The position numbers and the translations under genes are program-made. Of a DNA stretch of 64,000 nt, positions 1-38,152 are shown piece after piece. A model generated the notes under the pieces. That model was not told where the DNA came from. It ran no database searches and worked only from the letters and a program-made list of their open reading frames with translations. The DNA is from Tetradesmus obliquus (taxonomy: Eukaryota; Chlorophyta; Chlorophyceae; Sphaeropleales; Scenedesmaceae): assembly GCA_030272155.1 (NCBI GenBank), contig CP126191.1:1-64000 (forward strand). Reading direction: 5' to 3'. How positions within the stretch are numbered: the first letter of the stretch is position 1; each line of letters begins with the position of its first letter.

Positions 1-472
1 CCCTAACCCTAAACCCTAAACCCTAAACCCTAAACCCTAAACCCTAAACCCTAAACCCTAAACCCTAAACCCTAAACCCTAAACCCTAAACCCTAAACCC
101 TAAACCTAAACCCTAAACCCTAAACCCTAAACCCTAAACCCTAAACCCTAAACCCTAAACCCTAAACCCTAAACCCTAAACCCTAAACCCTAAACCCTAA
201 ACCCTAAACCCTAAACCCTAAACCCTAAACCCTAAACCCTAAACCCTAAACCCTAAAACCTAAACCCTAAACCCTAAACCCTAAACCCTAAACCCTAAAC
301 CCTAAACCCTAAACCCTAAACCCTAAACCCTAAACCCTAAAACCTAAACCCTAAACCCTAAACCCTAAACCCTAAACCCTAAAACCCTAAAACCCTAAAA
401 CCAAAACCTAAACCTAACCCTAAACCCTAAAACCTAAACCCTAAACCTAAAACCTAAACCCTATATATTGTT
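1..472. repeat. Terminal telomere, CCCTAAA repeat (TTTAGGG on the other strand)
   Basis: The first ~370 bases are almost perfect CCCTAAA heptamers with a few length variants (CCTAAA near 106, AAAACCTAAA near 255 and 335). From about 370 to 470 the tract degenerates into CCCTAAAA, CCAAAA and CCTAAA variants before running into unique subtelomeric sequence at about 463-472. The C-rich strand reads 5' to 3' from base 1, which is the orientation expected for the left physical end of a chromosome. Perfect distal repeats with degenerate proximal variants are typical of telomerase-maintained ends. The heptamer is the plant-type motif, also found in many green algae. Confidence 0.98.
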
Positions 473-3400
473 GTGTGACTGTGTAGCAAGGTTCAAGAGC
501 ATCACCAGCACCAAGGCAACCAGCATCCTGCATGCAAACCAGCACACACTTGGTCGGAATGTGCATATTTGCTGCCTACATTTGAGGCTAATGTTCCACC
601 GAGTAGAGCAGGTCAGATGCTGCAAGTGAGTGTGGTCCTGAAAAGAGCAGATCATGGGCTCTCTGGCTAGCTATGGAATGCCTCCATCCAATGAGTGTAG
701 CCAAAGATATGAACTTTTGAAGTTTGCATACCTAAATGGCCTGCTACTGCAGTGCCTGCTACTGCATATGTGCACACTTAGGCAAATTTCACAACATGCA
801 CAGCCCCTCACACTTCGAAAACAGTATTTTATAACCAATATATACATTACAAGCAAGTGGTGACAGCCATGGACTCCTTTGTGGTCATAGGAACACCAAC
901 AGCAGCAGCTGCAGGTGCAAGGGCTGCAGTAGTGAGGAGTGGAGCTAGCATGGCATCAGTGCTTGCTTTCAGTGAGTAGCATGAAGCACACAGAGTGCTT
1001 GGCTTCACATGAAAAACTAGGCATGCACACACCACTACATGTACATTGAGTTGAGCATGCAAGCTTCATGCTGTTCACATGGCACCTTGCTTTTTATTGC
1101 TTTGTAAAACAGCCCATTTCTCAGTGGAGAGAGGGGGGGTGTAGGTTGTCCTAAAACCTAAACCATAAACCCTAAACCCTAAACCCTAAACCCTAAACCC
1201 AAACTCCTGGGTATGTTGTGATTTGTTGTCTGCAGTGATCACAGTTGCAGGCCTTACCCTATGGGTTGTAAGCAAGGCAGCACAGACAGGCAGCTCCAAC
1301 CAACAGTGGGTGGTGGTGCCCCATGTGGTGCACAAAAACCCTAAACTGGTGGCATATTGTTGTGTGACTGTGTAGCAAGGTTCAAGAGCATCACCAGCAC
1401 CAAGGCAACCAGCATCCTGCATGCAAACCAGCACACACTTGGTCGGAATGTGCATATTTGCTGCCTACATTTGAGGCTAATGTTCCACCGAGTAGAGCAG
1501 GTCAGATGCTGCAAGTGAGTGTGGTCCTGAAAAGAGCAGATCATGGGCTCTCTGGCTAGCTATGGAATGCCTCCATCCAATGAGTGTAGCCAAAGATATG
1601 AACTTTTGAAGTTTGCATACCTAAATGGCCTGCTACTGCAGTGCCTGCTACTGCATATGTGCACACTTAGGCAAATTTCACAACATGCACAGCCCCTCAC
1701 ACTTCGAAAACAGTATTTTATAACCAATATATACATTACAAGCAAGTGGTGACAGCCATGGACTCCTTTGTGGTCATAGGAACACCAACAGCAGCAGCTG
1801 CAGGTGCAAGGGCTGCAGTAGTGAGGAGTGGAGCTAGCATGGCATCAGTGCTTGCTTTCAGTGAGTAGCATGAAGCACACAGAGTGCTTGGCTTCACATG
1901 AAAAACTAGGCATGCACACACCACTACATGTACATTGAGTTGAGCATGCAAGCTTCATGCTGTTCACATGGCACCTTGCTTTTTATTGCTTTGTAAAACA
2001 CCCCATTTCTCAGTGGAGAGAGGGGGGGTGTAGGTTGTCCTAAAACCTAAACCATAAACCCTAAACCCTAAACCCTAAACCCTAAACCCAAACTCCTGGG
2101 TATGTTGTGATTTGTTGTCTGCAGTGATCACAGTTGCAGGCCTTACCCTATGGGTTGTAAGCAAGGCAGCACAGACAGGCAGCTCCAACCAACAGTGGGT
2201 GGTGGTGCCCCATGTGGTGCACAAAAACCCTAAACTGGTGGCATATTGTTGTGTGACTGTGTAGCAAGGTTCAAGAGCATCACCAGCACCAAGGCAACCA
2301 GCATCCTGCATGCAAACCAGCACACACTTGGTCGGAATGTGCATATTTGCTGCCTACATTTGAGGCTAATGTTCCACCGAGTAGAGCAGGTCAGATGCTG
2401 CAAGTGAGTGTGGTCCTGAAAAGAGCAGATCATGGGCTCTCTGGCTAGCTATGGAATGCCTCCATCCAATGAGTGTAGCCAAAGATATGAACTTTTGAAG
2501 TTTGCATACCTAAATGGCCTGCTACTGCAGTGCCTGCTACTGCATATGTGCACACTTAGGCAAATTTCACAACATGCACAGCCCCTCACACTTCGAAAAC
2601 AGTATTTTATAACCAATATATACATTACAAGCAAGTGGTGACAGCCATGGACTCCTTTGTGGTCATAGGAACACCAACAGCAGCAGCTGCAGGTGCAAGG
2701 GCTGCAGTAGTGAGGAGTGGAGCTAGCATGGCATCAGTGCTTGCTTTCAGTGAGTAGCATGAAGCACACAGAGTGCTTGGCTTCACATGAAAAACTAGGC
2801 ATGCACACACCACTACATGTACATTGAGTTGAGCATGCAAGCTTCATGCTGTTCACATGGCACCTTGCTTTTTATTGCTTTGTAAAACAGCCCATTTCTC
2901 AGTGGAGAGAGGGGGGGTGTAGGTTGTCCTAAAACCTAAACCATAAACCCTAAACCCTAAACCCTAAACCCTAAACCCAAACTCCTGGGTATGTTGTGAT
3001 TTGTTGTCTGCAGTGATCACAGTTGCAGGCCTTACCCTATGGGTTGTAAGCAAGGCAGCACAGACAGGCAGCTCCAACCAACAGTGGGTGGTGGTGCCCC
3101 ATGTGGTGCACAAAAACCCTAAACTGGTGGCATATTGTTGTGTGACTGTGTAGCAAGGTTCAAGAGCATCACCAGCACCAAGGCAACCAGCATCCTGCAT
3201 GCAAACCAGCACACACTTGGTCGGAATGTGCATATTTGCTGCCTACATTTGAGGCTAATGTTCCACCGAGTAGAGCAGGTCAGATGCTGCAAGTGAGTGT
3301 GGTCCTGAAAAGAGCAGATCATGGGCTCTCTGGCTAGCTATGGAATGCCTCCATCCAATGAGTGTAGCCAAAGATATGAACTTTTGAAGTTTGCATACCT

Positions 3401-5614
3401 AAATGGCCTGCTACTGCAGTGCCTGCTACTGCATATGTGCACACTTAGGCAAATTTCACAACATGCACAGCCCCTCACACTTCGAAAACAGTATTTTATA
3501 ACCAATATATACATTACAAGCAAGTGGTGACAGCCATGGACTCCTTTGTGGTCATAGGAACACCAACAGCAGCAGCTGCAGGTGCAAGGGCTGCAGTAGT
3601 GAGGAGTGGAGCTAGCATGGCATCAGTGCTTGCTTTCAGTGAGTAGCATGAAGCACACAGAGTGCTTGGCTTCACATGAAAAACTAGGCATGCACACACC
3701 ACTACATGTACATTGAGTTGAGCATGCAAGCTTCATGCTGTTCACATGGCACCTTGCTTTTTATTGCTTTGTAAAACAGCCCATTTCTCAGTGGAGAGAG
3801 GGGGGGTGTAGGTTGTCCTAAAACCTAAACCATAAACCCTAAACCCTAAACCCTAAACCCTAAACCCAAACTCCTGGGTATGTTGTGATTTGTTGTCTGC
3901 AGTGATCACAGTTGCAGGCCTTACCCTATGGGTTGTAAGCAAGGCAGCACAGACAGGCAGCTCCAACCAACAGTGGGTGGTGGTGCCCCATGTGGTGCAC
4001 AAAAACCCTAAACTGGTGGCATATTGTTGTGTGACTGTGTAGCAAGGTTCAAGAGCATCACCAGCACCAAGGCAACCAGCATCCTGCATGCAAACCAGCA
4101 CACACTTGGTCGGAATGTGCATATTTGCTGCCTACATTTGAGGCTAATGTTCCACCGAGTAGAGCAGGTCAGATGCTGCAAGTGAGTGTGGTCCTGAAAA
4201 GAGCAGATCATGGGCTCTCTGGCTAGCTATGGAATGCCTCCATCCAATGAGTGTAGCCAAAGATATGAACTTTTGAAGTTTGCATACCTAAATGGCCTGC
4301 TACTGCAGTGCCTGCTACTGCATATGTGCACACTTAGGCAAATTTCACAACATGCACAGCCCCTCACACTTCGAAAACAGTATTTTATAACCAATATATA
4401 CATTACAAGCAAGTGGTGACAGCCATGGACTCCTTTGTGGTCATAGGAACACCAACAGCAGCAGCTGCAGGTGCAAGGGCTGCAGTAGTGAGGAGTGGAG
4501 CTAGCATGGCATCAGTGCTTGCTTTCAGTGAGTAGCATGAAGCACACAGAGTGCTTGGCTTCACATGAAAAACTAGGCATGCACACACCACTACATGTAC
4601 ATTGAGTTGAGCATGCAAGCTTCATGCTGTTCACATGGCACCTTGCTTTTTATTGCTTTGTAAAACAGCCCATTTCTCAGTGGAGAGAGGGGGGGTGTAG
4701 GTTGTCCTAAAACCTAAACCATAAACCCTAAACCCTAAACCCTAAACCCTAAACCCAAACTCCTGGGTATGTTGTGATTTGTTGTCTGCAGTGATCACAG
4801 TTGCAGGCCTTACCCTATGGGTTGTAAGCAAGGCAGCACAGACAGGCAGCTCCAACCAACAGTGGGTGGTGGTGCCCCATGTGGTGCACAAAAACCCTAA
4901 ACTGGTGGCATATTGTTGTGTGACTGTGTAGCAAGGTTCAAGAGCATCACCAGCACCAAGGCAACCAGCATCCTGCATGCAAACCAGCACACACTTGGTC
5001 GGAATGTGCATATTTGCTGCCTACATTTGAGGCTAATGTTCCACCGAGTAGAGCAGGTCAGATGCTGCAAGTGAGTGTGGTCCTGAAAAGAGCAGATCAT
5101 GGGCTCTCTGGCTAGCTATGGAATGCCTCCATCCAATGAGTGTAGCCAAAGATATGAACTTTTGAAGTTTGCATACCTAAATGGCCTGCTACTGCAGTGC
5201 CTGCTACTGCATATGTGCACACTTAGGCAAATTTCACAACATGCACAGCCCCTCACACTTCGAAAACAGTATTTTATAACCAATATATACATTACAAGCA
5301 AGTGGTGACAGCCATGGACTCCTTTGTGGTCATAGGAACACCAACAGCAGCAGCTGCAGGTGCAAGGGCTGCAGTAGTGAGGAGTGGAGCTAGCATGGCA
5401 TCAGTGCTTGCTTTCAGTGAGTAGCATGAAGCACACAGAGTGCTTGGCTTCACATGAAAAACTAGGCATGCACACACCACTACATGTACATTGAGTTGAG
5501 CATGCAAGCTTCATGCTGTTCACATGGCACCTTGCTTTTTATTGCTTTGTAAAACACCCCATTTCTCAGTGGAGAGAGGGGGGGTGTAGGTTGTCCTAAA
5601 ACCTAAACCCTAAC
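463..5614. repeat. Subtelomeric 889-bp tandem array (about 5.8 units), Sultan-like
   Basis: The same sequence recurs with an exact period of 889 bp; for example the segment starting at 1341 recurs at 2230, 3119, 4008 and 4897. The most distal unit is cut by the telomere at about 463-472 and the most proximal ends at about 5600 in a telomere-like tract. Each complete unit carries an embedded tract of about 50 bp made of CCCTAAA-type repeats, and a second single CCCTAAA motif about 180 bp further on. Units look identical apart from one G/C site. The architecture resembles the Sultan subtelomeric tandem repeats described in Chlamydomonas; I cannot test homology, so the comparison is one of layout. 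No convincing gene lies in the unit. Short open frames recur only because the unit recurs. Confidence 0.95.
1151..1203. repeat. Embedded telomere-like tract inside the 889-bp unit
   Basis: This tract contains variant and perfect CCCTAAA repeats, in the same orientation as the terminal telomere. Equivalent tracts occur one period apart at about 2040-2092, 2929-2981, 3818-3870 and 4707-4759. A shortened one sits at about 5596-5616, where the array ends. They mark probable old chromosome ends or recombination seeds inside the array. Confidence 0.9.
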
Positions 5615-6906
5615 CCCCCGCTGACGATCTTGTTGTTGTAGATGCTGACCCGCTTGCCATCTGGCACGGTGCCAGTCTTCTGCATCAGCTGCCTGAGGTG
5701 ATCGATGCCAGAGACGTCCTCCACGTGCACCAGCTTGCCCGCCGCGATGCGCGACAGCCTGTCATCGCCGCGCTTGGTGTTGCCGGCCTTGAAGGAAGAA
5801 GGCGCCAGCGACCTGTTCAAGTGGTGGGCTTCCCTGACCTGGGAAAGGGACTTGGCCAGCGCAAGGTCGGGGTAGCAGTGGTTGCCCATGACGCGGTAGC
5901 ACAGCGGCGGGCGCTTGCTGTAGCGCTCGGCAGAGGACTGCTGGTTGAAGAAGAAGCACTCCCCGTTGGCCTCACAGCCGTACATGGAGATGCCGTGGGG
6001 CTTACAGAAGCCCTCGTACAGGTCCAAGGTCGACACGCCCTGCTTGGCCGGGTCGTAGCAGGACTCACCCGTGCGCTTGAAGTTGGCAGCCTTAATGTCG
6101 CGCCAGAAGTTGGCCTCCTCCTTGAAGTAGGTCTGCAGACCGCTCTTGGGGTGTTTCTTGGTGTACAGGTACTTCACGGCGTCGAACACGCACGTGCCCT
6201 GGCCGCGGTCGTAGTAGGGCATGGGCACGCGGTCCAGCTGGTAGTGCTTGATGTTGGTCATGCGCACATCTGACAGGTCGGCCCGCGCATTGGTCTGCAT
6301 CACGTGCACGTTGGCTATGTCCACAGCATCAATGTCCACACCAATCAGGGCGCTCTGGCTGAGCTTGTTCTGCTGCAACTGCTTGGCATACTCCTGAGCC
6401 AGACGCCGGATCTTGCTCAGCTGGCCAGTGACAGTGAAGGGGACCTCCTGGGTGGAAGTGTAGGTGCGCCCGCCAGCCTTCTTTTGCTTCCAGGCAAGCT
6501 TGAGCTTGACGGTGCCAAAGGCCTGCACCTGCTTGCGAAGGCGGGGAACCAGAGAGCCGTCAGGCAGGGAGCGCCGGCCGTGCACCACCAGGTCGGTGCG
6601 CTTGGGCCAGAGGCGCTTGCTGGCAGGCGTGGCTGCCTGCTGCTGAAGGCGGGTGCGCCGGGCAGCGTCGTTGCGAATGCGCTGGGGTGTCTCGTCAAAC
6701 TCGCCACGCCGGTGGGCGTCTAGCCACAGGTCCTCAGGGAAGCCCTGCAGCAGGCCATGGGCGTGGTCCTTGAGCGCCTTGACGGTGGGGAAGCCGCGCT
6801 ACAGCGCATACTCGTGCGTCACACGGCTGTTGCGGTCTGTGAAGCCCAGGAACTGGCGGATGGCCTTGTTCCTGCGACTGTTGTAGTGGGTGGGGTAGGT
6901 TGCCAT
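5596..6906 (-). pseudogene. Truncated mobile-element or virus-like gene fragment, broken by a stop and by telomere-like sequence
   Basis: A minus-strand frame starts at an ATG at 6904-6906 and is interrupted by an in-frame TAG at 6799-6801. It is then open from 6798 to 5596, and the frame and composition continue smoothly through the stop. The downstream protein contains GTCVFDAVKYLY, a later GVSTLDLYEGFCKPHGISMY and a conserved-looking GNHCYPD. These resemble the region before the catalytic domains in protein-primed DNA polymerase-like proteins of mobile elements and linear plasmids. I recall this pattern only loosely, so the assignment is tentative; an OTU-like cysteine protease is an alternative. 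The last seven codons (GGLGFRF) are encoded by telomere-like repeat, so the native 3' part is missing and the gene was cut by the array seam. No polymerase catalytic motif is present in the surviving piece. Confidence 0.5.
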
Positions 6907-6969
6907 GACTGGTGCTGAGAGTATTCCTGCCGAGAAGAGACGGAGCCAGAGCTTAAGTGGCATGCAGGG

Positions 6970-7045
6970 TGGGGCCCAGCGGGGGCAGCGGGAATAGGCG
7001 AAGAGGTCGCGGGTTCGAACCCGGCCTGGTGGTTTTCACTTTTTG
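6970..7045 (+). other. tRNA- or SINE-like segment with RNA polymerase III box B
   Basis: GGGTTCGAACCCGG at about 7011-7024 matches the T-arm/box B consensus of tRNA genes. A loose box A-like stretch lies about 40 bases upstream (around 6970-6983), and runs of T follow at 7033-7044. The T stem has one mismatch, and I could not form a good 7-bp acceptor stem or a normal anticodon arm. It is more likely a degraded tRNA or a tRNA-derived SINE head than a working tRNA. Confidence 0.3.
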
Positions 7046-8650
7046 GGTGATGGCTCGCTCCTGATTTTTTGTCAGTGGAACGGGGAGCTCATGGCTCCAA
7101 TACGTTTGGCACAGTGTAAAACCACTATGGGAACTGCTTGGCCCCCAAGGGGGTTTCTAAAAGACTGCGCGCAGCGCTATCGCGTTGCTTACTTACTACT
7201 TTCTCGCATGCATCAGGAACAATTCCCACGTCCTGAGCAAATTACGATGCAGCATCCCCACTCACCCTCCCCTAGTTGCATTTGTTGCATGCAACTCCCT
7301 GCACCTCATGACATTCCTTGCATTTCCTGCATTTCAATCGAGATTCTTGATGGTAATAAACTTCTGTTGCATGTACCATGTTCTCACTCTCAGGAACGTG
7401 GCTTATACAGAGTTCAATGCGTCCGACACATTTCATTGCTGATGTGCTATCATGCGGTTAACGTCCAGGATGCCATTTACACCGTTTATGGACTTTCAAA
7501 GACATTAAGCAGGGAAGATAGTCATGATGAGGTTTTGCAAGGTTGTTGTGAAGTTGATGTACATCAACATGTTCACTTACTCATCGGCCAATTACCAGGC
7601 AACACAATGTACGCATGATCGCATCCAAAAACGGTTGTTGTCATCATGTTACATTTCAAGTCATAGCAACAGTTGGCATGCCGAGACGCCATGTGTTGCC
7701 ACGAACTAGCAAGAACACATTTGACACAATGCAAGGGATTTGCATGGTACATAAAGTAATTAATGACCATGCGCGCGGAGCTACTCGCTGCGACTTGCTT
7801 TATGTGGATACAAGCACACACCTTGGTTCAGAACAACCAAAACCGCAAAGGCGATTAGATGTCACGTTATATCCACATGGAGTGTCCTTGAACCATCCAC
7901 TAAGCCCATAAAAGTGCTAGTACACGTAACCATCCCAGGTTGCACAGCAACCGCCAGAATGGGTGCTCCACATCATCCAAGGTAGTGTACATAATTGCGT
8001 CGACATCCCACATAAGCGTCACGCCTCAGCAACATCACCACATCGCTTTATCCGCCACGTTCAGCGCCTACATCATCCGGCAGGTTGACGGCATGGCATC
8101 TGATTGAGCATGGGAAACTCTGTGGAACAATCTGTCCTCTGCTTGCTCAAAGATGGCCGCAAACGCATATGACCAATGGTGTCGACCTTGAGACATGACG
8201 GGCCTTTTACACGCGGCGTTTTGAGCGCGCAGATTGGAAGCACACGCAGCCTGCACGTTGACAAGAAGGCACAAAGAAGAAGGTGTGACAAGTGTCAACA
8301 TTGGCAAGGCCTGGGAATCAGCAGAAGTGTGCATCAGATGATATGTAATTCTACCAATGACATCAGATATGGAATTTATGTGCCTTTGTGCTAGTGTTGA
8401 GGACAACTACGGTATTGAGCACAAGTGCCACACAAATGGCTTCGTACCACACCAAGGGCACCAGAGCATCTCAAGCATCAACACCTCATCCTACAGGTTG
8501 CAAATCGTTCCATTCTGGCAAAACTAGTTGTCAGAGCATAAACAGCCCTCTGTTGCCAGATGTTTGTTTAAAATCCTTAGCACAGCACGGTTAACACCAT
8601 GTGTGGCACAGGTTAAAGTGTTGGTATCAGCTGTACACATCCTGGCTCAC
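7046..8650. other. Low-gene-density region, probably holding the RNase kappa gene 3' end
   Basis: Base composition is visibly less GC-rich than the coding regions. An open frame of 191 codons (7043-7618, plus) has no recognisable domain and no GC-rich third-position bias, so it was not called. The terminal exon and 3' UTR of the minus-strand RNase kappa-like gene must lie in the right-hand part. Acceptor candidates near 8500-8600 would give short alternative C-termini. I see nothing else supportable. Confidence 0.6.
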
Positions 8651-9602
8651 CTAGAGCAAACACTGTCCAACCCAAGTAGATGCCGCCAACTATGAAGCAG
8701 TTTCGAGATCCTTGCGCAATCTGCTCCTCTGTTGGAGCATGGTGCGGTGGCTCCTTCTCGTACCACTCGCCGATGAACCTGCATGGAGGGGACAACAGCA
8801 ACAACATGCCAACATTGTCAGCGCTCAAAGGGGGCGTGTGGACATCAATGTGTGGGGCAAGCTTGTTTTGATTGGTGACCTAGACCAACACGCAGATGCA
8901 ACACGGGCAAGCAAAAAGTGAGAGTCGGCTATCTGCAGCCACACTCCCAAGTCGGCCATGCTAGGGACTCCCAACCTCCATCCTGGCTGCAATTTGTACT
9001 GCTTCGCATGGCTTTGTGCCGCCAGCAGAAATGGCTGACGACACGGGCTAGGTGTTCAGGGCTCTCGCCCTAATTCCGAAATGAAGCTTGGCTACCAGGA
9101 TAGCATACATGTCTTTGTGCGCAGCAAATCGCGCATATTATACGATTGACAGAGTTGCATGACAACATGTCTGAAGAGCAATTGGAAAGCCTCGCCTACT
9201 GCTCACTGGTAGTTGTTCTTGATCAGCACTCCCAGCAGGAACATGAAAAATGCCCCGAAGATGGAAGTACCAGCGCAGGCAGAGCAACCTACAGCAACAC
9301 GGCAGCAGCATGCAGAGGCAGAGGTGAGCAGCAGCATCAGTGAGTAACGTAAAGGAATGGATTTTGCTTGCCTCACGCGACATCATTATCTTTCACATGT
9401 CTGGCATCGCTTGTCGCTGCTGTCACACCTACCATGCACTGCGCAGTGCAAGCATGCTCTGCAAGCAGTCCTGCTGCCCTGTTCTGCTGATCATGGTGCA
9501 GCGTCTGTGCTTTGTACAACAAAGCGTGTACTCTTCTTAATCAAAGCAAGCAGCTATAGAACACAGGCTGTCTACAGCAGTCGCACCAGTTACTCCACAC
9601 AT
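8651..9602 (-). CDS. RNASEK: RNase kappa-like small two-pass membrane protein (terminal exon unresolved)
   Basis: Three minus-strand exons join in frame: 9602-9587 (tiny, MCGVT plus one base), 9288-9207 and 8778-8651. The join uses GTGCG and GTGAG donors and TGTAG and TGCAG acceptors. The product begins with a short Cys-containing leader, then a hydrophobic segment (GTSIFGAFFMFLLGVLI), a hydrophilic loop beginning IGEWYEKEPPHHAP, and a second segment with NCFIVGGIYLGWTVFAL. Segment spacing and the NCFI-x2-G-x-YL signature match the RNase kappa family, small proteins now known as V-ATPase-associated subunits in animals. The last codon is split (phase 1) at a good donor at 8650, so at least one more short exon follows; I could not choose its acceptor. 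The ATG lies 426 bp from the divergent CSE1 start. Family assignment is moderate; the exon structure is firmer. Confidence 0.62.
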
Positions 9603-25067: not shown

Positions 25068-28000
25068 CTACGACATTTGAGGGCTGGTGCAGGACCTGTT
25101 GGTGCTGCTGCCTGACAGGTTGCCTGATGCGCCACGATTCATGGCGGGCTGCAGAGGGGAGCCTGGCCTAGCCAGCAGCGCAGCAGCACCTTGCAAGCGA
25201 GTAGCTGCCGACACTGGCCTGGCTTCTACATTGCTGCCAGATGCCACAACACCACTGCCATTCCTGCTGGTAGCTGCGGAGCTGAGCTCATCACTGGAGT
25301 CCGCGCCCGTCAAGCACGCTGCTGATGAGGGGCTGATGCCGGAGGGGCTGAACAAGCTCCCCCCAGCAGCAGCCTCACAATCAATGTTGGTGGCAACGCC
25401 ATCTTCTAGCCGAGTGACACTGGTGACAGTCTCACTGCCCGCAGGTGCGCAACCATCACTGGCAGGCGATGGCTGCGCACTGCTGCCACCAGCGCCTGAC
25501 AACAGCAGCGCACTCAAGCCAGTGCCAACTGCAGGTGCGAGTGGCGCAACAGGCTGGAACTTGCCATGGTGGCTGTAGAAGCCCAGGATGCGCCTGTAAA
25601 GCTGCCACACCTCCCCAGCTGCCGCGCAGCCCTCCAGGCTGTCGTCCAGGCGCTTCACCAGGCCCTGCAGCGCTGACACCTCAGGCGCCACAGCAGGCAG
25701 CCGCTTGGGCAGCGTGCGCAGCAGCTCCTGCAGGGCAGGCTTCACCGCCCGCCACGACTCCTCCAGGAGCCTGCGCAATGCAGCAAGCAGAGCACGCAAG
25801 GTCAGGCAGATGCTGAATATGAACACTCAAGAGCAGTGTACGACGAGATAAGGAGGCATCCATGCTAAATGTGAGCAGGCTGCAGGCCTTGCACACCGCC
25901 GCATTGTAAATTGTGACTAAGTGACTAATCAATAAAGCAAACATCCATGCCGATGCAACGCCTTACCTGTACTCGCTAAAGGGCGGGCGGTGTGTGATGG
26001 CTGGCTGACGACGCAGGTGCGCCCCACAGCCCACCAGGCCGGCATCAAGCAGCGCAGCAGCGCAGCCAGCAGCGCTGGCAGATGCCTCGCCAGGCCCACT
26101 GGCACGCAGCGCTGCTGAAAATAGTGCCATATGCTGCTGGGATGACATTGCTACAGCAGCGCCAGGGCATACCTGTACGAGCAAGCAGCAATGCCACGGG
26201 CAATAAGGGAGGGTGCAACCACATGCAAGCACCGCAGCGGCAATGGAGGGTGATATTGTTGCCAAGAAGTAACCGCCCTTGCAGCTGTGCCACACATGGG
26301 CTGCGTCTGTTTGCAGGGACCAGCACAGCAACATGCTTCACCTGTCAGGAGCATAAAGGTTTTGCACAACGAATACCTCAGGATGCAAGGTTGCTCCTGC
26401 CTGCAAGCCCACTTGCCTGCTTCAGCAATGCCGCAAAGTCGTCCTGCAGCGCCATGCCCCGTCCCTTGCTGTCGACCATGCGCACCAGCACCTCCAGCTG
26501 CTGCTGGTCGGCAGTGCGCTGGGCCAGCCATGCAGCCAGCAGCAGCTCCAGCGCATCATCAACCTCAAGGGTGTTGTCACTGCTGCCGCCTGCAGCGCTG
26601 ACTAGCGCATCAGGCAGTGCTGCAAGCTCCGGGCAGGCAGGCGCCAGCGTGGGCTGCAGCACCTCTGCTGCCAGCTGCAATGCTGTGCATGCCATCACCT
26701 GGCTGCTGCCCTCTGTGGCCTCGCCCGTCAGGGGCCCACACGAGCAGTGCAGGTGCGCCATGAAGTGCAGCAGCGCACCGACACCTGGCAGACGCCACAC
26801 CCCAGAAACATGCAAGGTTATGGCTGCTTGTGCTTTGTGTTTTACCAGCACAGAAGTGTGTCGCATCAGATTTCCGACCTGCAATGCGCATAAACTGTGC
26901 AGCGCTGCAAGTACAAGTGCCGGTGACAAGCCTCACAACACGCTAACAACCTATGCCTCACCTGCTGGTGGCACCACAGGCTCAAGCAGCCCCAGGCACC
27001 TGCCAAACAGCCTGGCACGTTTGCTGCGTGGCGCTGCCTTGCGCAAGCTGACTACCAGTGCGGTGCAATGTGCTTCAGCGGCTAGTTGGCCACCCAATCT
27101 GCACAGCAAGCAATGGCAGCAGCACCCATTGGGGCATCAAACAGCAGGCATTTGCAAACATACGCAACACCTGGTCAGACCTGCTCTTACATGAATGTGG
27201 TTAAACCCAAGCATAGCAACCACATACGTTGAGTTGCCTAGCAGGCTTGCAACTGCAAGTGCTTCACAGTAGTAACATTGCCTGCATGCAGCAGTTGGCC
27301 ACACCTTGCCATGAAGAAGTCGTACACGCAGCCCTCCAGGTCAGGCCTGCTGCGGCTGCTCCACCAGGCTGACACCAGCGCAGCACCCTTGGATGCAGCG
27401 CCACCACCACCAGCATCACCAGAGGTGTCAGCAGCACCACTGCTGCCAATGCCAGCGTCTGCAGGTGCCGCGCCAGTGCCAGATGCCCGCACGCCTGTGC
27501 CTGATGCTCGACCACCAGCGCCCGCTGCACTGCAGCCAGCAGCATCTGCCTGTGCATCTGCCTGTGCATCGGCAGTGATCTTGTGCAGCAGCAGCTCACC
27601 GACCATGACAGCCAGGCTGTCAGGAGTGAAGCTCAAGCCGGCTAGGCCCACAGGAAGAGACAGCACAGTAGCAGCCAGTCGCTGGGGCCCTGCAAACCAC
27701 AGCAGCACAACAACAAACGTCACCCCTGGTCAGTAGACAGAGTGCTTGAAAACGCTTGACAGCTGGAAAGCAGATGAGCCTGTACACGCTAGATGGAAAT
27801 GTGATGCTTTTGCTGTGCTGGTGAATCGTTGAGGTATCCAGGCGATGCAGCTCACCGCTGTTGGCTGTGCCAGCAGCTGCCTGCCTGTTTGCTTCCGCCA
27901 CCACATCTTGCATGGCCTGCCTGGCTGCTGCCCAGGGCCCCACTTCCTGGTGCGGGTGCAGCCAGCGCTTGCCAGCACTGCCAAAGCCACCTCCAGCGCC

Positions 28001-29025
28001 GGCATCACTCAATGACATGCTGCCTCTGGTTCTGCTGCCACTGCTGCTGCCATTGCTGCTGCCATGTCGGCTCGAACGGGACTTGCTGCCTGTGCTGCTT
28101 TTATCTACTGCTGGCTCAGCATCACTGCCAGGCATGCAGGCAGCACGTGCACCCTGCCGCAGCGCCCAAGCTTCAGCGGCCATGAGCCCCAGGCTAGCCT
28201 GCAGCTGAGCAATGCGGCAGCGCAGCGCAACGGCTGCCGCCTCTGCTGCCTTGGCTGCCTGTGCTGCACGTGCTCGCTCTGCCAGCTGCCGCTGCTCTGC
28301 CAGCTGCTTGTCTGCCTGGTGCTTGGCCTCAATGCCCTTCAGGGCAGTGCTGACCGCCTGCAGGCGTAAGCATGGCACGGCAGATCATTTCAAGCACCAG
28401 CAGCACGTATGTGTCACAGGAGTGTGACTGTACAGGTGCTTGCAGGAGGCTGTCCCACATGTTGCCAACAACACTTGTTCTGCGTCACCAGCCAGTGTAC
28501 CAACAACGCGCCGCCCACCTGCTTTGCCGCCTCCAGCTCTGCCTCCAGGCCTGCGATGCGCTCCTCGCTGCCGCTGGCATTGAGCTTGATGCGCTCACGC
28601 TCAGACTTGAGGTTAGACACCTCCACCTAGCAGGGGTACAGGAAAAACGGGTGGTTTGATCAGGAACAGGTGGCAAGCGTGGCGACTGAACTAGTTTGGC
28701 GCTGCAGTGTGCACAGCAAGAGGCAGCCACATCATGCGGAGCTTGTAAAGGCCATCACCACCAACAACAGACAGCATCCACGCGTCATGCATCACATGCA
28801 GCAGCATGTCAGGGGTGTGCTGCAAGGACATCTAAACATAGCCAACCAGGTGTTCACAGCGACCAGGCGGCAGTAAGCCACCTGATGCTGGCAGCCGCCA
28901 CTGGCAGCCCCCGCCCACCTGCAAGAAGCTGATGACGGTGTTTGCCCGCTGCAGCTTCTCCTCCCCCAGCGCCTTGTCAGCCTGCAGCTCACTGATGCGT
29001 GACGTGAACTTGTCAATGCCGCTCT

Positions 29026-29075
<50 letters not shown>

Positions 29076-32000
29076 AAAGCAGCAGCAGATGAAGGAAAGG
29101 AATTGAGGTGTGTCTGTAGATCTGAAGAGACTGTGCTGATGCTTACACAGCACAGCACATTGTGCTTACGTCCCAAACCTATCACCACCGACGGCATCAG
29201 TGCAATTCACTGCTGTTGGGCACACCTGCCACCTGCGACTTACTGAACCCTACCTGCAACGCTGTCATACGCTGCGCTAGTGCTGCTTTGTCTGCCTGTG
29301 CAGCCTCAAAGGCAGCCAGCTGCTGACTGAGCTGCGCCTGCAAGGCAACCTCGGATGCCTCTGCTGCCGCGAGCTGGCCCAGAGCCGCAGCGTGGATGAG
29401 CTCTGATGCCTGGATCAGCGCAGACAGCAGGCAGCAACAGCAACAGCCATTGCGTGACTTGTCTGCAACTCCGCTGCCACTTCAGGGTGAGTAGCAGCCA
29501 GCGGCTCCAGTCGCCATCTCAGGTACTATAAGTAATCCAAGATGAGTGCAATTTCGAAACACATAGCAAGCAGCTACTGCTGCTAAAGGAAAGTAGGCAG
29601 CCAAAGCAGAAGCGCATTTACAATTCAATTAATGTGCGGTACTAACGGTTTGTGTGCAACCAGCTTCATTCTCCTGATGCTGCACACCCTCACCTGCAGT
29701 GCTTGTTGCTCCAGTGCCCATTGACGCTGCTGCAGCCGTTGCTGGTGCGCATCTCGCATGGCAGCTTCGGCAGTGCGCAGCCTGGCAGCCGCCTCACCAC
29801 GCTGAGCCTCCGCCTGCTCACGTTGATGGCGCAGCTGCTGTAGCTGGCTGACTTTGACTGCTGTTTGCCCGTGCACTGCTGCAACCTGCTCACTGGTGAT
29901 GTCTGGCGCAGCCAACTTCAGCTGCAGCAGCAGACAACAAGAGGCAGACACGAGAGCAGGAGTGAGTCGTGTACAACGCATCATCAGCAGGCAGCGGGGT
30001 ACGGCACTTTCTGCGAGATGGCGAACAACGCCGCACACAGGTGTGAATGATGTCTGCATCTGTTGCCTCCACAGCAGTGCGCAGCAAAGATGTACAGCAG
30101 ACTGATGCTGACAGATGCAGAACCTGCTGTTCAGCTGCATGCTGGTGCTGCTATGCGCACCAGGAGCTGCTGCTTCTCCACCTCCGCCTCTTCGATCTGC
30201 TCGTCCAGCTTCAAGCAATCCTGGCCCATGCGCCCGACATCTGACGCGGCTGACTCATGCGCCTTGCGCGCAGCAGGCAGGTCGACAACAGACACAGCGG
30301 GCTGGGCAGCGCCACCTACAGCAGCAGATGGATAGGTGCACACAGGATTGTGATAGCAGGCCTCAAAACGTACGCATGTTTAGAGCACTGTAGTAGTGTA
30401 CAAAGCACACCGGCAAACTGCATTAGAGTTGGTTCCATGAACAACACTAGACGGCTCCACGTTTAGCATGGCATTGGATCCACATGCCAGTTGTATGGTT
30501 CGGACTTGTCACACCACAGCAGACTGTATGCCTGTTTGCAGGCACTGCCAGTCTCAAATCTCTTGAGACAGAGCGCGGCGCTTCTGCTGATGAAGCTGCT
30601 GCAAGACAGCAATGCCGCCGTTGTGGGCACAGACACATCAGCTCACCTTTGCTGAGCAGGGCTGCGGCTGGTAGCCTGACGCCGCCGCCAGTGCCGGCCC
30701 CTGCCCCCAGCAGCCGCAGCTCTGTCTCCAGCCGCTTCAGGCGGCCCTCCAGGCCCTCCAGCTCCTTCTGCTTGGCCAGCAGCTGCTTGTGCAGCGACTC
30801 GACCTCGCTCGTAGCAGCGACATAGGCAGCCTTCCAGCGACGCTTCTTCGTGCGCTGCAGTGGCGCGGGTGAAGGTGTGCATGCACAGCAATGACGCATG
30901 TGACACAATTGCAATTGCAAATGGTAAAGAAGCAGCGGCTGCACAGTTCAAGGCGCGGCGGGAATCTTAAACTACATAGGGCGACACATGTGTTGTGCAA
31001 GTAGCAACACATGGTGTGCATGGTGCACATTATTCGGGCTGCCAGCCCTTCAAGCAGCTCACCTTGCGCTCCATCACCGCTAATGTGCCTGCCACCCTGT
31101 CCCGCTCTGCAGCCAGGTCGGCTGAGGTCAGCTCCAGCTTGCGGTCACTGGCAGCCAACTCGCCGGTCAAACGCTGCTGCTCAAGCTCCAGCCGCGCCTG
31201 GGAGCAGCAGCAGCAGCAACAACAACAGAGCAGCACGTACGCAGCTATGTGTTCACAGCATTGATGTGACAGATGTAGGGGCGCTTAGCCTAGCTAACTG
31301 GTGACACATAACCCATAACCTCAATGACGATGTGCGCCGTGCTTAAGCAGCTGTGCATTTAGGGCAGCGCGTCGGTGAGGGGCCCCAACTTGATGATGTG
31401 CAGCATTGCCGGATGTACCTGCTTTGCCTCTGCTCTGTCTGCCTGGTCCTTCTTCTCCCTTGTGAGCCGCTCTACATCAGCAGTCAGCGACTTGGCCAGC
31501 AGCCGCGCCTCACCCAGCAGCCGCTCAGACACCTGGGGGCAGCAACACACGGTGATGACGCATACAGATGAGCGGGCGGCAGGAGGGAACAGTGCGTCAT
31601 ACCCGCAGCTCCCACGCTGCATAGTGGCAACTGTCAGCACTCCAAGCAGGAGAGCCCAGCACAGGCTGAGCATGTTGAGGATCAACAACGAATGTGTCTG
31701 CAGGCTGAGCTGCACTGCACAGCTTGGGGAGGGTCGGGCATGCCAGCAGCTGTGTGAAACCATCGGGTCACCCGCTGCTGTACCCACCTTGGCTGCCTCC
31801 TGCAGCTCCTTCACCTCACGCTGCTTCTTCTCCAGCTGGCCCTGGCAGAGCTCCAGCTTGGTGAGTGCCTTGTGCAAGCGAGTGGTGACGTCACTCAGCT
31901 GCTCCGACTGGCCCTGCAGCACATTAGATAGACACAAGGCAGCTGCGAGTAAGGTTTGCAGTTGACTCGCAACAGTTGAGTAGCTGTGTTGACCATGTGT

Positions 32001-35000
32001 CCACCATCAATAAAGTATCTTCTGTCACCAAACTACCTGCAAGCAGACTGCACGACACAGAAGCAGCAGCAGCTATTGCTGCAGCCACCACTGCAAGCCT
32101 CCGCACCTGGCTCTGCGCCAGCAGCTCGTCGTTCTTTGTCTCTGCCAGTGCCAGGCGGCTGCCCAAGCTCATGGCCTGGCGCTGCGTGTCCGCAAGGGAG
32201 GCCTCCAGCAGCGCCAGCTCGCTTGTCATCCTGGCAATGCGCCCTGACTGCTCTTGGACCTGAGGAAAGCGGCGACAGAACAATCGACAGGCGTTGATGG
32301 TGTGCGCTGCAGCAGTAGCGCTGCCGGCCATTGCAGCGTAGGGAGTTCTGGGTGCCATGCACTTATGGCTGCACGCACCAAGCTATATTATTCCATCAAC
32401 GTTGGATTGCTTGACCATGTCACAAGTGTTTCAGCTGGCACCAAGCTTGTGAATGTCGCTGCTGCAGCTGATTGAGATCCCACTCTGCTACTTTGAGAAT
32501 ATGATCTGCGCTTTGCACATGCCGCACCGTTGCGTCCAGGTCATGCAGGCGCGCGTCCTTGCCCTCCAGGCTGCTGCCCAGATGGATGCCCTTGGAGCGC
32601 TCAGCAGCCAGCAGCCGCAGCAGCAGCTGGCGTGCAGACTGTTGAGCCCGCAAGCTGAGCATGGCAACTGCAAAGCCCTTGCTGACCTGCAAAAGGCGGC
32701 AGGCACCATGACAGCAGCGTCACAACAGCAGGGCTGCGGTGACATCATGAAGCCTAATCGTATCAATAGAGTGTTGGCATCATAGCAGGTGCACCCCGCA
32801 AGACAACAAGCCCAGGCACGTTCATGGCATGCGCACCTCAGCCATCAGGCGGTGCTTGCGCTGCAGGTTGCTTGCGGCAGCTGCCAGCCGTTGCTCTAGT
32901 TTGCCATTTGCTTGTTGCTTCTCAGCCACGTCCAGTTGCAGCTGCTCCACCTGCTCCTCCAGCTGGCCACACCTGCAGCCCAGCCAACAAAGCAGCGTCA
33001 GCGTTGCAATGCTGGTTTGCCTTGCATCATGCATGTGATGGCAGCGCTTACCTCTGCTCCAGCGACTCTGCCTTGGTGCGAGTGTTAGCTAGCTGCCCCT
33101 CGGCATCCCCGAGCTCCAGTAGGTGCTTGGCAACGGCCTCATGCGCAGCCAACAGGCGACGCTCGAGGTCAGCAGCACTGGCCTGCAAGGGCACGCGTAC
33201 ATGCATAACTCTGTAAAAATAGGTGAGGGCGGGCTGTTTGCTGGCGCTATGCACTCTGAGCATCTCATCTTGCAGCACAGCTTTGCTGGAAATTGCTGTG
33301 GCAGCCCGGCAAACACAGCACTCCAACCTCAAGCCTTCTGGGCATTACTACCACTGCCCGTGCTGCCGCTGCTGCTGCTCGCCACCTGCTCTGCGCGCAC
33401 CTGGCTCGACTCCAGCTGCCCCTGCACCCGCGCCTGCGCGCGCTGCACCTCAGCCAGCTGCTGGCCGGTCTGGTGCGTGGCCTCGCGCGCCTCACGCAGC
33501 TCATCTCCCATGCGGTAGTTGTCGGTCAGAGCAGCTGTGCGTGCATCAAGCGCCAAGCGCCACTGTGCATGCATCACCTGCATTTGCTGGCTCAGGCGCT
33601 CAGCCAGTGGCTGCAGGTCCTCTGCATGATCCACAACTACTTCTGCCCCGATAGCGGCTGCTGCTGGCAGTGGTGATGAAGAGTCTTCGCTGTTCTGCCC
33701 TGCTCGGCTGCAGCTGTTGCTGTTCTCTGCGGCGGTTTGCTGCAAGGGCTGCCCTGGCGGCTGCTGTTGCTGCTCCAGCTCATTCATCTGCTGCACAAGC
33801 TCGGTGTCTAGTTGCAGCGCTTTGTCAACATGTTGAAACACATCACGCACCTGCATTGCATTGTGAGTATCACATGTTGAGAACATGCTGCTGTGGGCTT
33901 TCAAATGGCACCAAACATGCCGGTTACAGCCGCCACTATAGCCACGTAAAAACGCATTACTGGCAGTGCCAGGCAGTGCAGGTTCTCCAGATGTTGCAGA
34001 GCCTCACCGCTTTACACTGCCCCAGCAGCGTGCCGTAATGGTCATTCAGCTCCTGATGTTGCTGCTGCAGCCGTTCATGCACACCAGCAAGCTCCTGCAG
34101 CTGCTGTTGTGCATCCTGCAGCTGCAGCTGCATGGCTGACTTTGCGTCCAGAGCATCAACGTACTGCTTCACGGCATGCTGGTGCGCGCTCTGCTCCAGT
34201 GCAAGGGCAGCTTGCAGCTCCTCCACCTGCCGCAGAAGGGCAGCGTCGGCAACAGTGCCCGGTGCAACACATGGCAGCTCAAACTGAATATGGGCCAGGC
34301 AGAGGGGGCAGCATGCTGTCAAGCACTACTCCAATGGGTCCATGATGTGGTGGCCATGCAATGCATTGGTGCGGCCACACAACACTTAATTGTTTGGGGC
34401 CGCCAGGCGCACCTGAGCCTTGAGCCCCCTGCTCAGTGTTGACGCCTCCGCCTCTGAAGCTGACAGCCAGCCCAAGTCCTTCACCATGCTGGCATTGTCA
34501 CGCCTCGCCTGCAGGCACGTGGACAGGCAACCGATTTTTTCAGTGGCAGAAGCCAAATGGAGGTCAGGGCTGCAGCGGCCTTGTACCTCTGCACGACTGC
34601 TAGTTCTGCTGATGCTTCCGTCCCTGCTGCAGTCCACATTGCTGCCATGCTTGCCGGCGGACGTTCTGTGCACTGATGTGCCAGTCACCAGCAGACATGC
34701 AGTGCTTGCAGATAGCGCACCTCTGCAAGTTCCTGCTTGCTGCAAAGTAGCTCAGCCATGGCAGTCCCGGCAGCATTTACAAGAGACAGGTAATCGCTCT
34801 TGAATGTCGACTGCAGGTAGCAGCAGCAACAGCAGCACCCAGCAGCAGTGACAAACAGAGATGAGAACGACAAGCAGAAGATTGTGTGGTCATACCCAAC
34901 AGCAAACATGCAGTCATTGTATGAGGTTCGTTCAACCGCCCTCTGCTTGGCGTTGCTCAGTGGGCGTATTTGCTGTAGCTCACATGCCTGTGCTGTGTCT

Positions 35001-36599
35001 GACAGTGCAGCAAAGCGCTCACCTTGAGAGCGTGCTCTGCTAAGCTGAGGAAGGCGCGCCATACAGATAGCAGCAGCTCCTGACGGTTGCCATTGTTTTG
35101 CAGCACATCCTGCATAACGCACATTGCACCGCAGTTGGAAAGGGTGTGTAACATGAACATACAGCAAATGTTTCGAGATTGAGTTTTAAATGCTTGGCGC
35201 CTGGTGTGTGGATGCTGCAGTTTTGCATGCAGAGGCGACTCCTGCACAGCAGCTACTGGCAGTGGCAGGGGATGCTGTTGTAGATGTTGGTGCGGCTGCG
35301 GGTACCAAATAGGTGCACGCGTTGCATCTCAGCAGTGCAGCTGCTGCTGCTTATGGGTATGTCGGCCAACATTGTGAGCTTACTTTGGTGGAGTCAAAAA
35401 AGCCAACACTGTACACGTACAAGCTGCGGTACAGCTGGTCCACTGCTGCATTGCTGAGGCCAGCCACTAGCAGCTGCTTCCTTGCAAGCCCTGCTGCCGC
35501 AGCGCCTCTGAGGCCAGATGCACGTGCTTGCTGCTGTTGCTGCCGTACAACTCTGTCGCACTGGTTGCCAGCTGCGTGCTGCTGCTGGTGCGGGTGCTGG
35601 CTGCTGCTGAGTGCTTCATCAAGCCAGGCCTCCAGCTGCAGCGAGCCGTCCTGTCTGCTGTTGGTGGCTGACGCCTGCGGCAGTTGCCAAGCACAGACCA
35701 ACAACAAGTCCTGCTGATGGTTGAATTAGTTGTTTCTGCACACCATACCATGCGACTTCTTTGTACAATAAACCGGCATGGCTTGTTCTGCTGCTGAGTG
35801 CACTCTGACTGAACTGACCTTCCTGCCAGCAGATCAAAGGTTAGAATATGTTGAAGACTGGCGGTGAGCAACGTGCTAGCTCTCACCAGCTGTTGCTGCT
35901 GTTGCCATGGATCCAAGCCCAACAGCATCCCAGGCATGCTGCTGGTGGCACCTGGGCTGCGTCCCAGTGCGTATGCCATGAGCTCAGCCTTGCGTGCTCT
36001 GCGCATCGGCGACCAGGCCTGACCTGCACTGCTGCCAATGCTGCCTGATATTGGCATCTCATACAGGTCTGCATAAAAACAATAAGAAGTACGTGCACTG
36101 CAATCAGGTGCATCAAATTTGTACATGCAGAGCCAGTGATTGCTGGCATCTGCCTCATCACCCCTGGCTGTTGTCGCTGCTCCATCACTCCGCCAACACA
36201 GAGAAAAGCCTGGCATGAACACAGGCGTAGCGTCGCTGCCATGACTTGTCCAATTGCCGCCACATCTACATACCTCCTGACTTCCGCAGTGGAGGCAACG
36301 ACACTGACTTGGCAGAGTCATACTCTCTCTCCCCTCCCGCCATTGAAGCCCGCAGTGCTGCTGCTGCGCCATGGACTGCAGGACTGCAATCAGAGGTGCT
36401 GCTGTGCCCCAGCCTGCCTGCTTGAGCTCCTTTGACTGCTTCTGCAGCTCTGTCGGTTGACTGGTGCGGGCGTAATGACAAAGACAACAGTGTGAGCACT
36501 GCAGCAGTAGCAGTGGCATGGTGTCCATGATGCCGTAAACGGGCTGAGAAGAAGCACCTGACACGCTTCGGCAAAGGTTGACGGCGCCGATGATTTCAT
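25068..36599 (-). CDS. Gene A copy 1: large coiled-coil protein of unknown function, 28 exons, complete
   Basis: Exons (5' to 3'): 36599-36558, 36460-36274, 36068-35887, 35710-35384, 35109-35023, 34810-34721, 34508-34413, 34283-34008, 33850-33401, 33182-33052, 32972-32837, 32686-32528, 32259-32107, 31913-31788, 31532-31419, 31197-31063, 30854-30647, 30315-30161, 29921-29694, 29409-29254, 29023-28919, 28626-28519, 28357-27856, 27689-27305, 27098-26962, 26784-26417, 26136-25967, 25770-25068. Phases agree throughout, giving 1971 codons. Residues 1-250 are low-complexity; a conserved-looking block VDQLYRSLYVYSVGFF follows. About 340-1220 is nearly continuous coiled coil with heptads such as LEEQVEQLQLDVAEKQQ. 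The C-terminal ~750 residues mix helical blocks (ALELLLAAWLAQRTADQQQL, LDDSLEGCAAAGEVWQLYRR) and low complexity. Intron 26 is GC-AG (donor GCAAGT at 26416-26411). A scaffold or cytoskeletal/ciliary role would fit but is only inference; I do not recognise the family. The last codons lie outside the duplicated unit, so this copy has the native end. Confidence 0.85.
29025..29090. repeat. CAG/CTG trinucleotide tract in a gene A intron (copy 1)
   Basis: Roughly 60 bp of CAG repeat with CAA and AAA interruptions lies immediately upstream (in gene orientation, as CTG) of the exon starting at 29023. It occupies the polypyrimidine-tract position. The same tract is in copy 2 at 46262-46327 with no length change that I can see, notable for a normally unstable repeat. 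Confidence 0.9.
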
Positions 36600-38152
36600 G
36601 TAAAGCTTTCAGGTCATCACGGGCCCAGTTGAGGCGAGGTGCTGCTTACGACGGTCAACCTGATGACAAGACAGTGTTCGCGTTCTCGCTTGATCCTGGA
36701 TTTCTGATGACAAGTTGCATGAAACCATCTCATTATTCACAACGCACATCACGTCGTAACGTATGAGTCGTACCGCAGATGTAGGGCTTGAGGGCACAGT
36801 CACACCTGCAGTTCACTGTTCTTTCCTGACACCTGCCGAGTGATGGCCTCCTAAGGCTAGCGATTTGACTCATTATGCTGTACTATGCTTTTTCATCATT
36901 ATCAACGGTATTGTTCCTGTTGTAATGAAGCAGTTGGTGCAATTGTGGGGTACAAAGGAGCTAGTGCTGTCTAGCCCGGGTCGCCCAGACTAGTAGTAAT
37001 AGCTAGCACCTAGTAGGCACAGAACATCAGTGAGACTCCCAACAACAGACGTTCAGAGCTGCTATAGTCGGCTAGCGCCGGGATTGTGGGGAAACATGGC
37101 TGGCACAGTGCGCCAACAGCTCCATCAGCCCAAGAGCTGATCAGCACTGGCAGCAGCAACAGTGCTCAATTGAGGGCCAGTTACCTGGCAAACTGCGGAC
37201 TCGATCAGCGACAACACGATTACGCTTGACAGCCATACCAAAATGGCTGGTGTTGCGGCGGTCTGCCTCTGTATCAGTTTGAGCCACCGGGCTGCAGCTG
37301 TTCCACTCGACTCAGCCACGGCTGCTCAAGAGCTGACACTTGGCAGGCCACCACAAGCGCTGGTACCAGGGCGCCGGTGCACCAGTGCGCCACCCAGCTG
37401 CAGGCTCTGACAGCTGCCCTGCAGAGTTCCAGGAACGCCGCAACTCTGCTGCAAGAAGTTTGCACCCTGTGCACTGCTATGTACAGCAATTATGAGGCAG
37501 CTGCAGCTGCCACTGCAGTGCATCTAACGCGCAACACGGACACACAGCAGCACAGCAGGCTGGCAACCCTGCATCGTGTATGATGGACGGCCAAGCCTTG
37601 CCTGCATTGAATCAAACACATGACAGGTTCATACATGGAGTGGAACAAGCTCTCATCACCGGCAAGCAGCCCTTGCAGGAAGCCAACTCCACAGCACTAC
37701 AGCTGGAGCGGCGGCGCAGGGGGGCTGTGCTGTGTAGTCAAGTGATGACAGTGGCTGATATCCCATACAATGTAGGCTGGGGCTGGCTTAGCCAGCTATC
37801 AGCTGTAAAGCAACCTTGAACCAGCTGCATGCACTGCAAGTGTCCGACACATAGCACTGCCACAGCTGTACAGCAGTGTGAAAGCTTGCTGTTGCACACA
37901 GCTTATGTCACTCCAGCACCCCAAGCCCGCAGGTTGTTCAAGCGCATAGAGATGCTCTGTACCACCTATTCATTTTTTTGTTGGGCGTGGGTTACTTCAG
38001 ATGACCTGCAGTCCCCCCCCCCCCCCCCCCCCCCCCCCGTCGCGGCGTGCTTGAACCAGTGAGTGTCAGGCCGCGGCGGCCTGTACCATGCAGCAGCAAG
38101 CTGCGAGGTCTTTGTAGGTTGAAATTGGACTCTGTGCTGTTTTCTTTGACAT
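36600..38152. other. Divergent intergenic region between gene A and gene B (copy 1)
   Basis: It contains the gene A promoter, the poly-C tract (38013-38038), and several short frames. The frames at plus 37242-37409 (start MAGVAAVCLCISLSHRAAAV, signal-peptide-like), plus 37377-37583 (helical) and plus 37580-37819 are modestly protein-like but do not join through plausible introns. A minus frame at 37319-37125 has one hydrophobic segment (AILVWLSSVIVLSLI). None is supported enough to call. Confidence 0.45.
38013..38038 (+). repeat. Homopolymer of 26 C (copy 1)
   Basis: An uninterrupted run of 26 C in the divergent intergenic region. The copy 2 equivalent has 21 C. The G-rich strand could form a quadruplex, and the run is also a likely place for sequencing length error. 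Confidence 0.95.

Follow-up and report, generated by a model that had tools for sequence, protein, structure and literature searches.

Why does each unit of a tandem array beside a telomere carry a telomere tract of its own, and did those tracts help to build the array? The question is raised by the outermost part of our window, the 64,000 nucleotides at the left end of contig CP126191.1 of Tetradesmus obliquus (positions 1 to 64,000; this end is C1 left below). There, a 463-bp CCCTAAA telomere stands outside an array at 465-5617, in which five full units of 889 bp are followed by a partial one. We propose, with a probability of roughly 0.7, that the array is a recently amplified local form of a family of subtelomeric modules whose members pass from one chromosome end to another by way of telomere repeats. 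The features at this end are:

1..463, + strand: terminal telomere of CCCTAAA repeats, degenerate on its inner side
465..1351, + strand: unit 1: module A, cut back to unit position 3 and abutting the telomere, followed by the seam and segment B
1151..1203, + strand: interstitial telomere seam, 53 bp
2040-2092, 2929-2981, 3818-3870 and 4707-4759: the same 53-bp tract in units 2-5
1204..1332, + strand: segment B (unit 742-870), once per full unit
1333..1345, + strand: stretch holding a single telomere repeat at the B-to-A joint, found in this array only
1352..2240, + strand: unit 2, with C at unit position 650
2241..3129, + strand: unit 3
3130..4018, + strand: unit 4
4019..4907, + strand: unit 5
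4908..5617, + strand: unit 6, partial (710 bp), innermost, with C at unit position 650
5596..5613, + strand: innermost telomere seam, 18 bp, followed by six C
5620..6798, - strand: open frame that the seam truncates, part of a 400-aa stop-to-stop frame at 5596-6798

The units start at 463/465, 1352, 2241, 3130, 4019 and 4908, with a period of exactly 889 bp, and unit position 650 is the sole site that varies within them (from the outermost of the six copies to the innermost: G, C, G, G, G, C). Otherwise, the only deviations are at positions 1-2 of the outermost unit and at 703 and 707 of the innermost, in each case where the unit's own flank starts. The exact periodicity and near-perfect identity described in the first-pass annotation are confirmed, as is its tract of about 50 bp per unit: a CCCTAAA-type tract of 53 bp, in the same orientation as the terminal telomere, is present in all five full units, and the innermost seam measures 18 bp. 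That annotation had placed the array at 463..5614; the array is real, but its inner end is at 5617. The unit is a composite, running from module A (about 6 bases before position 1 to about 687) through the telomere tract to segment B (742-870) and then, by one extra telomere repeat, to A again. The variants 525C and 610T occur in all six units at C1 left and in none of the 15 other copies of A compared, and on such sequence comparison the array is identified as a local amplification of one founder.

The core of module A has at least 27 matches in the 104.7-Mb genome (these counts are lower bounds). All 27 listed matches lie at chromosome ends, distributed over 12 of the 33 ends not known to be masked (33 or 34 in all), and their orientation relative to the telomere is uniform. 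The expectation that the unit would recur at other ends is therefore borne out for its core, but the exact 889-bp unit depends on the joint of B to A, which was found at C1 left only. Three or more tandem copies are present at 2 of the 12 core-bearing ends, C1 left and C5 left (with a period of 1,848 bp), and C7 left, C17 left, and C17 right have two copies each. Since 22 ends (of 33 or 34) lack the core, the cycle that we propose below does not reach every end by module A. A search with an eroded-A pattern gave 24 sites, all at the same 12 ends (the reversed control gave 0), although this pattern includes part of the telomere tract and so cannot prove that the tract is always present. Finally, a 282-bp stretch of A is identical at six ends, which implies that spread between ends has been recent.

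The inner edge of A is constant. Across the 22 ends read, it was located in 26 places; in 24 of these it joins at least 12 bp of telomere-type sequence, and in the other two, which are joints between an A remnant and another module, D, it joins 4 bp. Across these tracts A meets 20 different starts, 12 of which are the inner flanks of the 12 ends. In contrast, the outer edges are variable, and most stop at telomere repeats: 18 of the 22 mapped by hand are telomeric (at least 60% telomeric sequence within the next 30 bp), as against 2.55% of 20,255 background positions in the same zones. The array at C5 left, which is built differently from that at C1 left, is also seamed with telomere repeats. 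Together, the inner-edge joints, the 20 starts, and this second seamed array support the earlier suggestion that the telomere tract helped to build the array, with the growth step itself conjectural. The "eroded end" of the first-pass annotation is likewise supported: truncated copies capped by telomere repeats occur, and one remnant of A at C7 right is about 11 bp long and one at C5 left about 19 bp, both beside telomere-type sequence. C7 right and C12 right have in common a cut at unit position 137 of A. We considered common descent, but the copies differ elsewhere; the site has GG as its last bases on the telomere-forming strand, so the cut may have arisen more than once, at a recurrent capping site.

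The inner flanks point to broken ends. Of the 12 flanks, four were searched for homologs, and at three of these (C1 left, C12 right, and C7 left) the sequence breaks off at the telomere but is intact in internal homologs, three of which were aligned per seam and run beyond the cut. (The inner flank at C5 left had no long homolog and is uninformative.) At C1 left, the cut sequence is the open frame at 5620..6798, whose homologs at C5:5086957, C4:2090336, and C10:177137 extend beyond the cut. A Pfam scan of the whole frame (5596-6798) gave only WYL_2, at E = 0.092 and below its cut-off, and we leave the frame unnamed. The innermost seam at 5596..5613 was presumably once the end of the chromosome.

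The strongest alternative is ordinary satellite growth, in which sister chromatids exchanged unequally and so amplified a block that held a telomere tract by chance, with the tract itself passive. Unequal exchange alone accounts for near-identical tandem units and for the G-C-G-G-G-C pattern, and it could have been the last step at C1 left. But as a full explanation we consider it unlikely, as it does not explain the telomere seams of both arrays, the 20 starts behind A by way of telomere-type sequence, or the capped truncations at ends that have no array.

A second alternative is that A and D are dead or non-autonomous retrotransposons that target telomeres, of the MoTeR/FoTeR type. In such elements, the 3' end of the chromosome primes the copying of an RNA whose own 3' end pairs with the telomere, which predicts an inner edge that stays constant and a stack of 5'-truncated copies separated by telomere tracts. 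Module A resembles them in its constant edge on telomere repeats, its variable truncation opposite that edge, its single orientation, the telomere tracts that separate its copies, and its position at chromosome ends, and the same asymmetry of edges appears in the passages that describe FoTeRs (PMC12857005).

However, the coding content and the neighbors of A argue against insertion. No stop-to-stop frame of more than 94 aa is among those listed for the C1 left unit. The two longest frames of the module family (252 aa and 174 aa) have no Pfam match with an E value of 1 or less, whether to a helicase or to a reverse transcriptase, and no further copies in the genome outside the elements. (An HNH-like identity for the 252-aa frame was an impression only, which that scan did not bear out.) Every copy is truncated, so a domain may have been lost. 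The 252-aa frame runs outward, against the direction of the RNA that such an element requires. The neighbors of A are B, D, and a gene fragment. At C5 left, the start of B comes immediately inside the terminal telomere; at C17 left, B continues into the 174-aa frame, whose joint with the gene fragment lacks telomere sequence. C1 right and C8 right have in common a D-seam-gene-A block (1,095 bp, 97.7% identity) in which D is trimmed at different points, and C5 left and C12 left have in common a D-seam-B block; the ends with such common blocks have different inner flanks. Multi-module blocks with the same internal truncation thus moved together, which single insertions do not explain, and, judged from the elements themselves, we find the retrotransposon account distinctly improbable. 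Least credible of all is that the assembler expanded one unit into the C1 left array: the units are nearly identical and were judged from the assembly alone, but they carry a distinguishing variant and different end flanks, a 5.2-kb array would fit within the length of a single long read, and the architecture recurs in a second array and at ten further ends.

Returning to spread through telomere repeats, we propose a cycle of four steps. First, an end would break or erode and be capped with telomere repeats. Second, the capped end would recombine with another end, at the interstitial telomere tract that borders A on its inner side, and copying outward, of the break-induced replication type, would gain A and everything outside it, with the old telomere left behind as a seam. 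The joined products are seen; the enzymatic route is our suggestion. Third, the new end would erode and be capped anew at another point. (The first and third steps are read from the sequence.) Fourth, the ends with arrays, C1 left (889 bp) and C5 left (1,848 bp), would each have reused their own seam or that of a sister, so that the same block was added several times, perhaps by self-invasion, circle copying, or unequal exchange. The circular 889-bp molecule suggested earlier is a possible source of the array, but a single round of rolling-circle copying would not by itself give the G-C-G-G-G-C pattern; some further event would be needed.

Several observations count against this model. Besides the ends that lack the core and the cut at unit position 137, which may recur, the genome encodes a telomerase RNA-binding domain (Telomerase_RBD, PF12009, at C16:3778830; 64.7 bits, cut-off 25), so recombination is not needed to keep the ends. 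Moreover, some joints lack a full tract: that at C17 left has none, the B-to-A joint at C1 left has one repeat, and the two joints between an A remnant and D have 4 bp. More tentatively, and with more doubt than confidence, we suggest that despite the encoded telomerase a good share of ends are repaired by a standing cycle of copying from telomere to fossil telomere, so that each such end would be a readable stack of former ends and arrays like that at C1 left would be natural counterparts of ALT-type arrays.

How does this family compare with known systems? The Sultan element of Chlamydomonas reinhardtii is a subtelomeric tandem unit that adjoins the telomere and is amplified within ends more than between them, with arrays at 27 of 34 chromosome ends. 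The C1 left unit, which the first-pass annotation put forward as a possible new member of a Sultan-like class, is similar in length and its array lies directly beside the telomere, but the wide distribution of arrays is lacking, as A is at 12 of 33 ends and in three or more copies at 2 of these 12. The likeness is an analogy to the description of Sultan rather than to its sequence, and it does not establish membership.

A closer parallel is TelKO of Naumovozyma castellii. In the passages that describe it (PMC6778800), TelKO is the most distal subtelomeric element of telomerase-negative cells, is bounded inside by a short interstitial telomere tract, and forms arrays with about 50 bp of telomere sequence between tandem copies. 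The C1 left unit is likewise bounded inside by a tract and added tandemly at the end, with 53 bp between copies, but it is longer (889 bp as against about 275 bp) and stands in a genome that now encodes a telomerase domain, whereas the TelKO arrays arise after telomerase loss. Similarly, in TALT and mTALT of C. elegans and mouse ES cells, as excerpted from PMC7889907, subtelomeric sequence beside telomere repeats moved to another end and was amplified; on mouse chromosome 11, eight telomere repeats that adjoin a subtelomeric deletion stand in front of the mTALT copy. Transfer between ends and amplification are as for A, but that amplification is described in telomerase-deficient cells, and truncation module by module at several ends is a feature of our genome. 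Finally, the Y' elements of Saccharomyces cerevisiae also form tandem copies at ends separated by interstitial telomere repeats, but as far as the relevant part of a Y' survey reports (PMC13177704), only half of Y' have an inner telomere tract (as compared to 24 of 26 inner edges of A), 0 of 15 short Y' are interrupted by telomere sequence, and new telomere addition has no significant role in shaping the elements. Y' elements also encode a helicase, which is a further difference from the 252-aa and 174-aa frames of our family.

Altogether, the sequence suggests that broken ends in this alga receive a telomere cap, gain sequence copied from other ends, and in some cases undergo amplification. 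The cycle of breakage, capping, capture, erosion, and amplification has so far been mostly inferred from mutants, and its joints are now given at the level of bases. Telomere-capped truncations are common here, unlike in the part of the Y' survey that addresses them (PMC13177704), and the order of the seams lets the past ends of single chromosomes be read. Routine recombination at chromosome ends becomes testable in a species with telomerase and, if it is confirmed, ALT-type arrays, which are otherwise known mostly from telomerase mutants, would have natural counterparts.

At the left end of contig C1, the CCCTAAA telomere occupies the first 463 bp of the window and is followed, at 465-5617, by five full 889-bp units and one 710-bp unit. 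The first-pass annotation had described an 889-bp array with a telomere tract in each unit, a description that is accurate apart from a few bases. The tract is 53 bp long in every full unit and 18 bp at the innermost position. (We term these interstitial CCCTAAA-type tracts seams.) Unit position 650 is the sole variable site inside the units (G, C, G, G, G, C from outermost to innermost); other differences occur only at the two margins of the array (outer edge of unit 1, inner edge of unit 6). Further along the window, two head-to-tail copies of a 17.2-kb segment (25116-42356 and 42353-59588) are 99.94% identical, through either very recent tandem duplication or duplication during assembly.

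The annotation had also suggested looking for the unit at other chromosome ends, and its core, module A, was found at 12 of them (both ends of C1, C7, C8, C12, and C17, the left end of C5, and the right end of C3). Searching the 17 contigs (104.66 Mb) with the tract-free part of the unit gave at least 27 matches to A. All 27 of those listed lie at these ends, with none in chromosome interiors, and all have the same orientation relative to the telomere. The search covered at most 33 of the 34 ends because the first 10 kb of C2 (1-10000) reads N. Telomere repeats were read directly at all 16 unmasked left ends and all six right ends examined, and matches from the genome search also indicate such repeats at C4, C6, C10, C13, and C16 right.

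By comparing 22 chromosome ends, we defined four modules: A; B, the unit segment behind the seam; D, a neighboring module; and g, a gene fragment. From this comparison, the 889-bp unit is therefore A, a seam, and B, with a single telomere repeat before the next A. From the telomere inward, with "/" for a seam, the 12 ends read:

C1 left: A/B-A/B-A/B-A/B-A/B-A/
C5 left: B-g-A/D/B-g-A/D/B-g-A/ (an extra partial copy behind the outermost A; a 19-bp remnant of A before each D)
C12 left: D/B-g-A/
C8 right: D/g-A/
C1 right: D/g-A/
C3 right: g-A/
C17 left: A/B-frame-g-A/
C7 left: A/A/
C7 right: 11-bp remnant of A/A/
C12 right: A/
C17 right: A/A/
C8 left: A/

C5 left holds a second array, with a 1,848-bp period from the same modules and copies that are 99.3-99.7% alike over long stretches. 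Module g is part of a 252-aa frame (C5 left 2911-3669) that reads outward, towards the telomere; its protein has 13 matches in the genome, all 13 within these subtelomeric elements. Behind segment B at C17 left lies a 174-aa frame (677-1201), for which a 127-aa query matched only its own locus in the genome. No Pfam family was found for either frame. A satellite with ~180-bp spacing adjoins the seam on its inner side at C17 left (2179-8951) and at C1 right, in opposite orientations relative to the telomere. Near the telomere of C16 left (815-1710) is a short tandem array of near-identical copies (~225-bp period) with no match to A.

A 12-base motif was used to locate the inner edge of A, which occurs at 26 places in the ends that were read (3 of them remnants). 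Beyond it lie 12-139 bp of telomere-type sequence at 24 places and 4 bp at the other 2 (lengths by a loose rule that takes in a little of the flank for C1 right and C12 right). Behind these tracts are 20 different 12-base starts. Twelve are the inner flanks, one per end, and the other eight are pieces of A, B, D, or an internal repeat. The outer edge is variable: A starts at unit position 3, 137 (two ends), 170, 187, 398, 483, or 560, and elsewhere it runs on into g, where the cut lies. At least 60% of the 30 bp outside was telomeric for 18 of 22 hand-mapped edges, compared with a background of 2.55% across 20,255 positions from these zones. The exceptions were:

C8 left 502: shared sequence extends ~60 bp further out, then telomere
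C12 left 296: variant repeats, 50%
B-to-A joint of the C1 array: one telomere repeat
C17 left 1153 joint: no telomere

We searched the genome for homologs of four of the 12 inner flanks (C1 left, C12 right, C7 left, and C5 left) and aligned three internal homologs per informative flank. For C1 left, homologs on C5, C4, and C10 continue beyond the switch to telomere, and six C directly behind the 18-bp seam are absent from them at that point. Homologs of the C12 right flank (on C3, C16, and C12) and of the C7 left flank (on C5, C15, and C13) also continue beyond the seam cut. For the C5 left flank the search found no long homolog, which says nothing about a cut. Because homologs run past each cut, we infer that all three informative flanks were cut off and then capped with telomere repeats. 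The innermost seams resemble former chromosome ends.

Modules evidently also move between ends at the DNA level. C1 right and C8 right have D-seam-g-A in common over 1,095 bp (97.7%), and the cut in g falls on the same base in both; their inner flanks differ, and D is trimmed at different points. Similarly, D-seam-B is common to C5 left and C12 left. Such multi-module blocks are hard to explain by separate insertions, but they would arise if copying began at a seam and proceeded outward to another chromosome's tip. A 282-bp stretch of A is identical in copies at six ends, so exchange has been recent.

The C1 array itself grew in place: 525C and 610T are private to it (6 of 6 units and 0 of 15 other compared copies). 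Likewise, at C17 left both copies of A have the variant 440A. Telomere sequence within the unit had been proposed to seed array growth, by recombination at an eroded end or insertion of a circle. This mechanism is supported in part, with the telomeric inner edges of A favoring a role for the tract. Circle copying becomes one of three candidate routes, with self- or sister-invasion at a seam and unequal exchange, and sequence alone gives no choice among them.

C16 encodes a telomerase RNA-binding domain (64.7 bits, cut-off 25), so the genome that holds these arrays has a telomerase gene. The closest working parallel is the N. castellii TelKO array, in which ~50 bp of telomere separates the copies and an interstitial tract is the proposed starting point (PMC6778800). 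Y' elements share the seams and the location, but only half of them carry the inner tract, and telomere sequence interrupts 0 of 15 short copies (PMC13177704). Capture and amplification, as in the A family, are also features of TALT and mTALT (PMC7889907). Sultan elements offer an analogy, with the array a possible member of that class. No description of a telomere-seamed mosaic of this type in algae appeared among the titles and abstract openings surveyed (20 of 89 papers in one search), a survey that did not extend to the main Sultan paper. The C1 array belongs to a family of telomere-seamed modules found at 12 chromosome ends, a wider feature than the first-pass annotation described.
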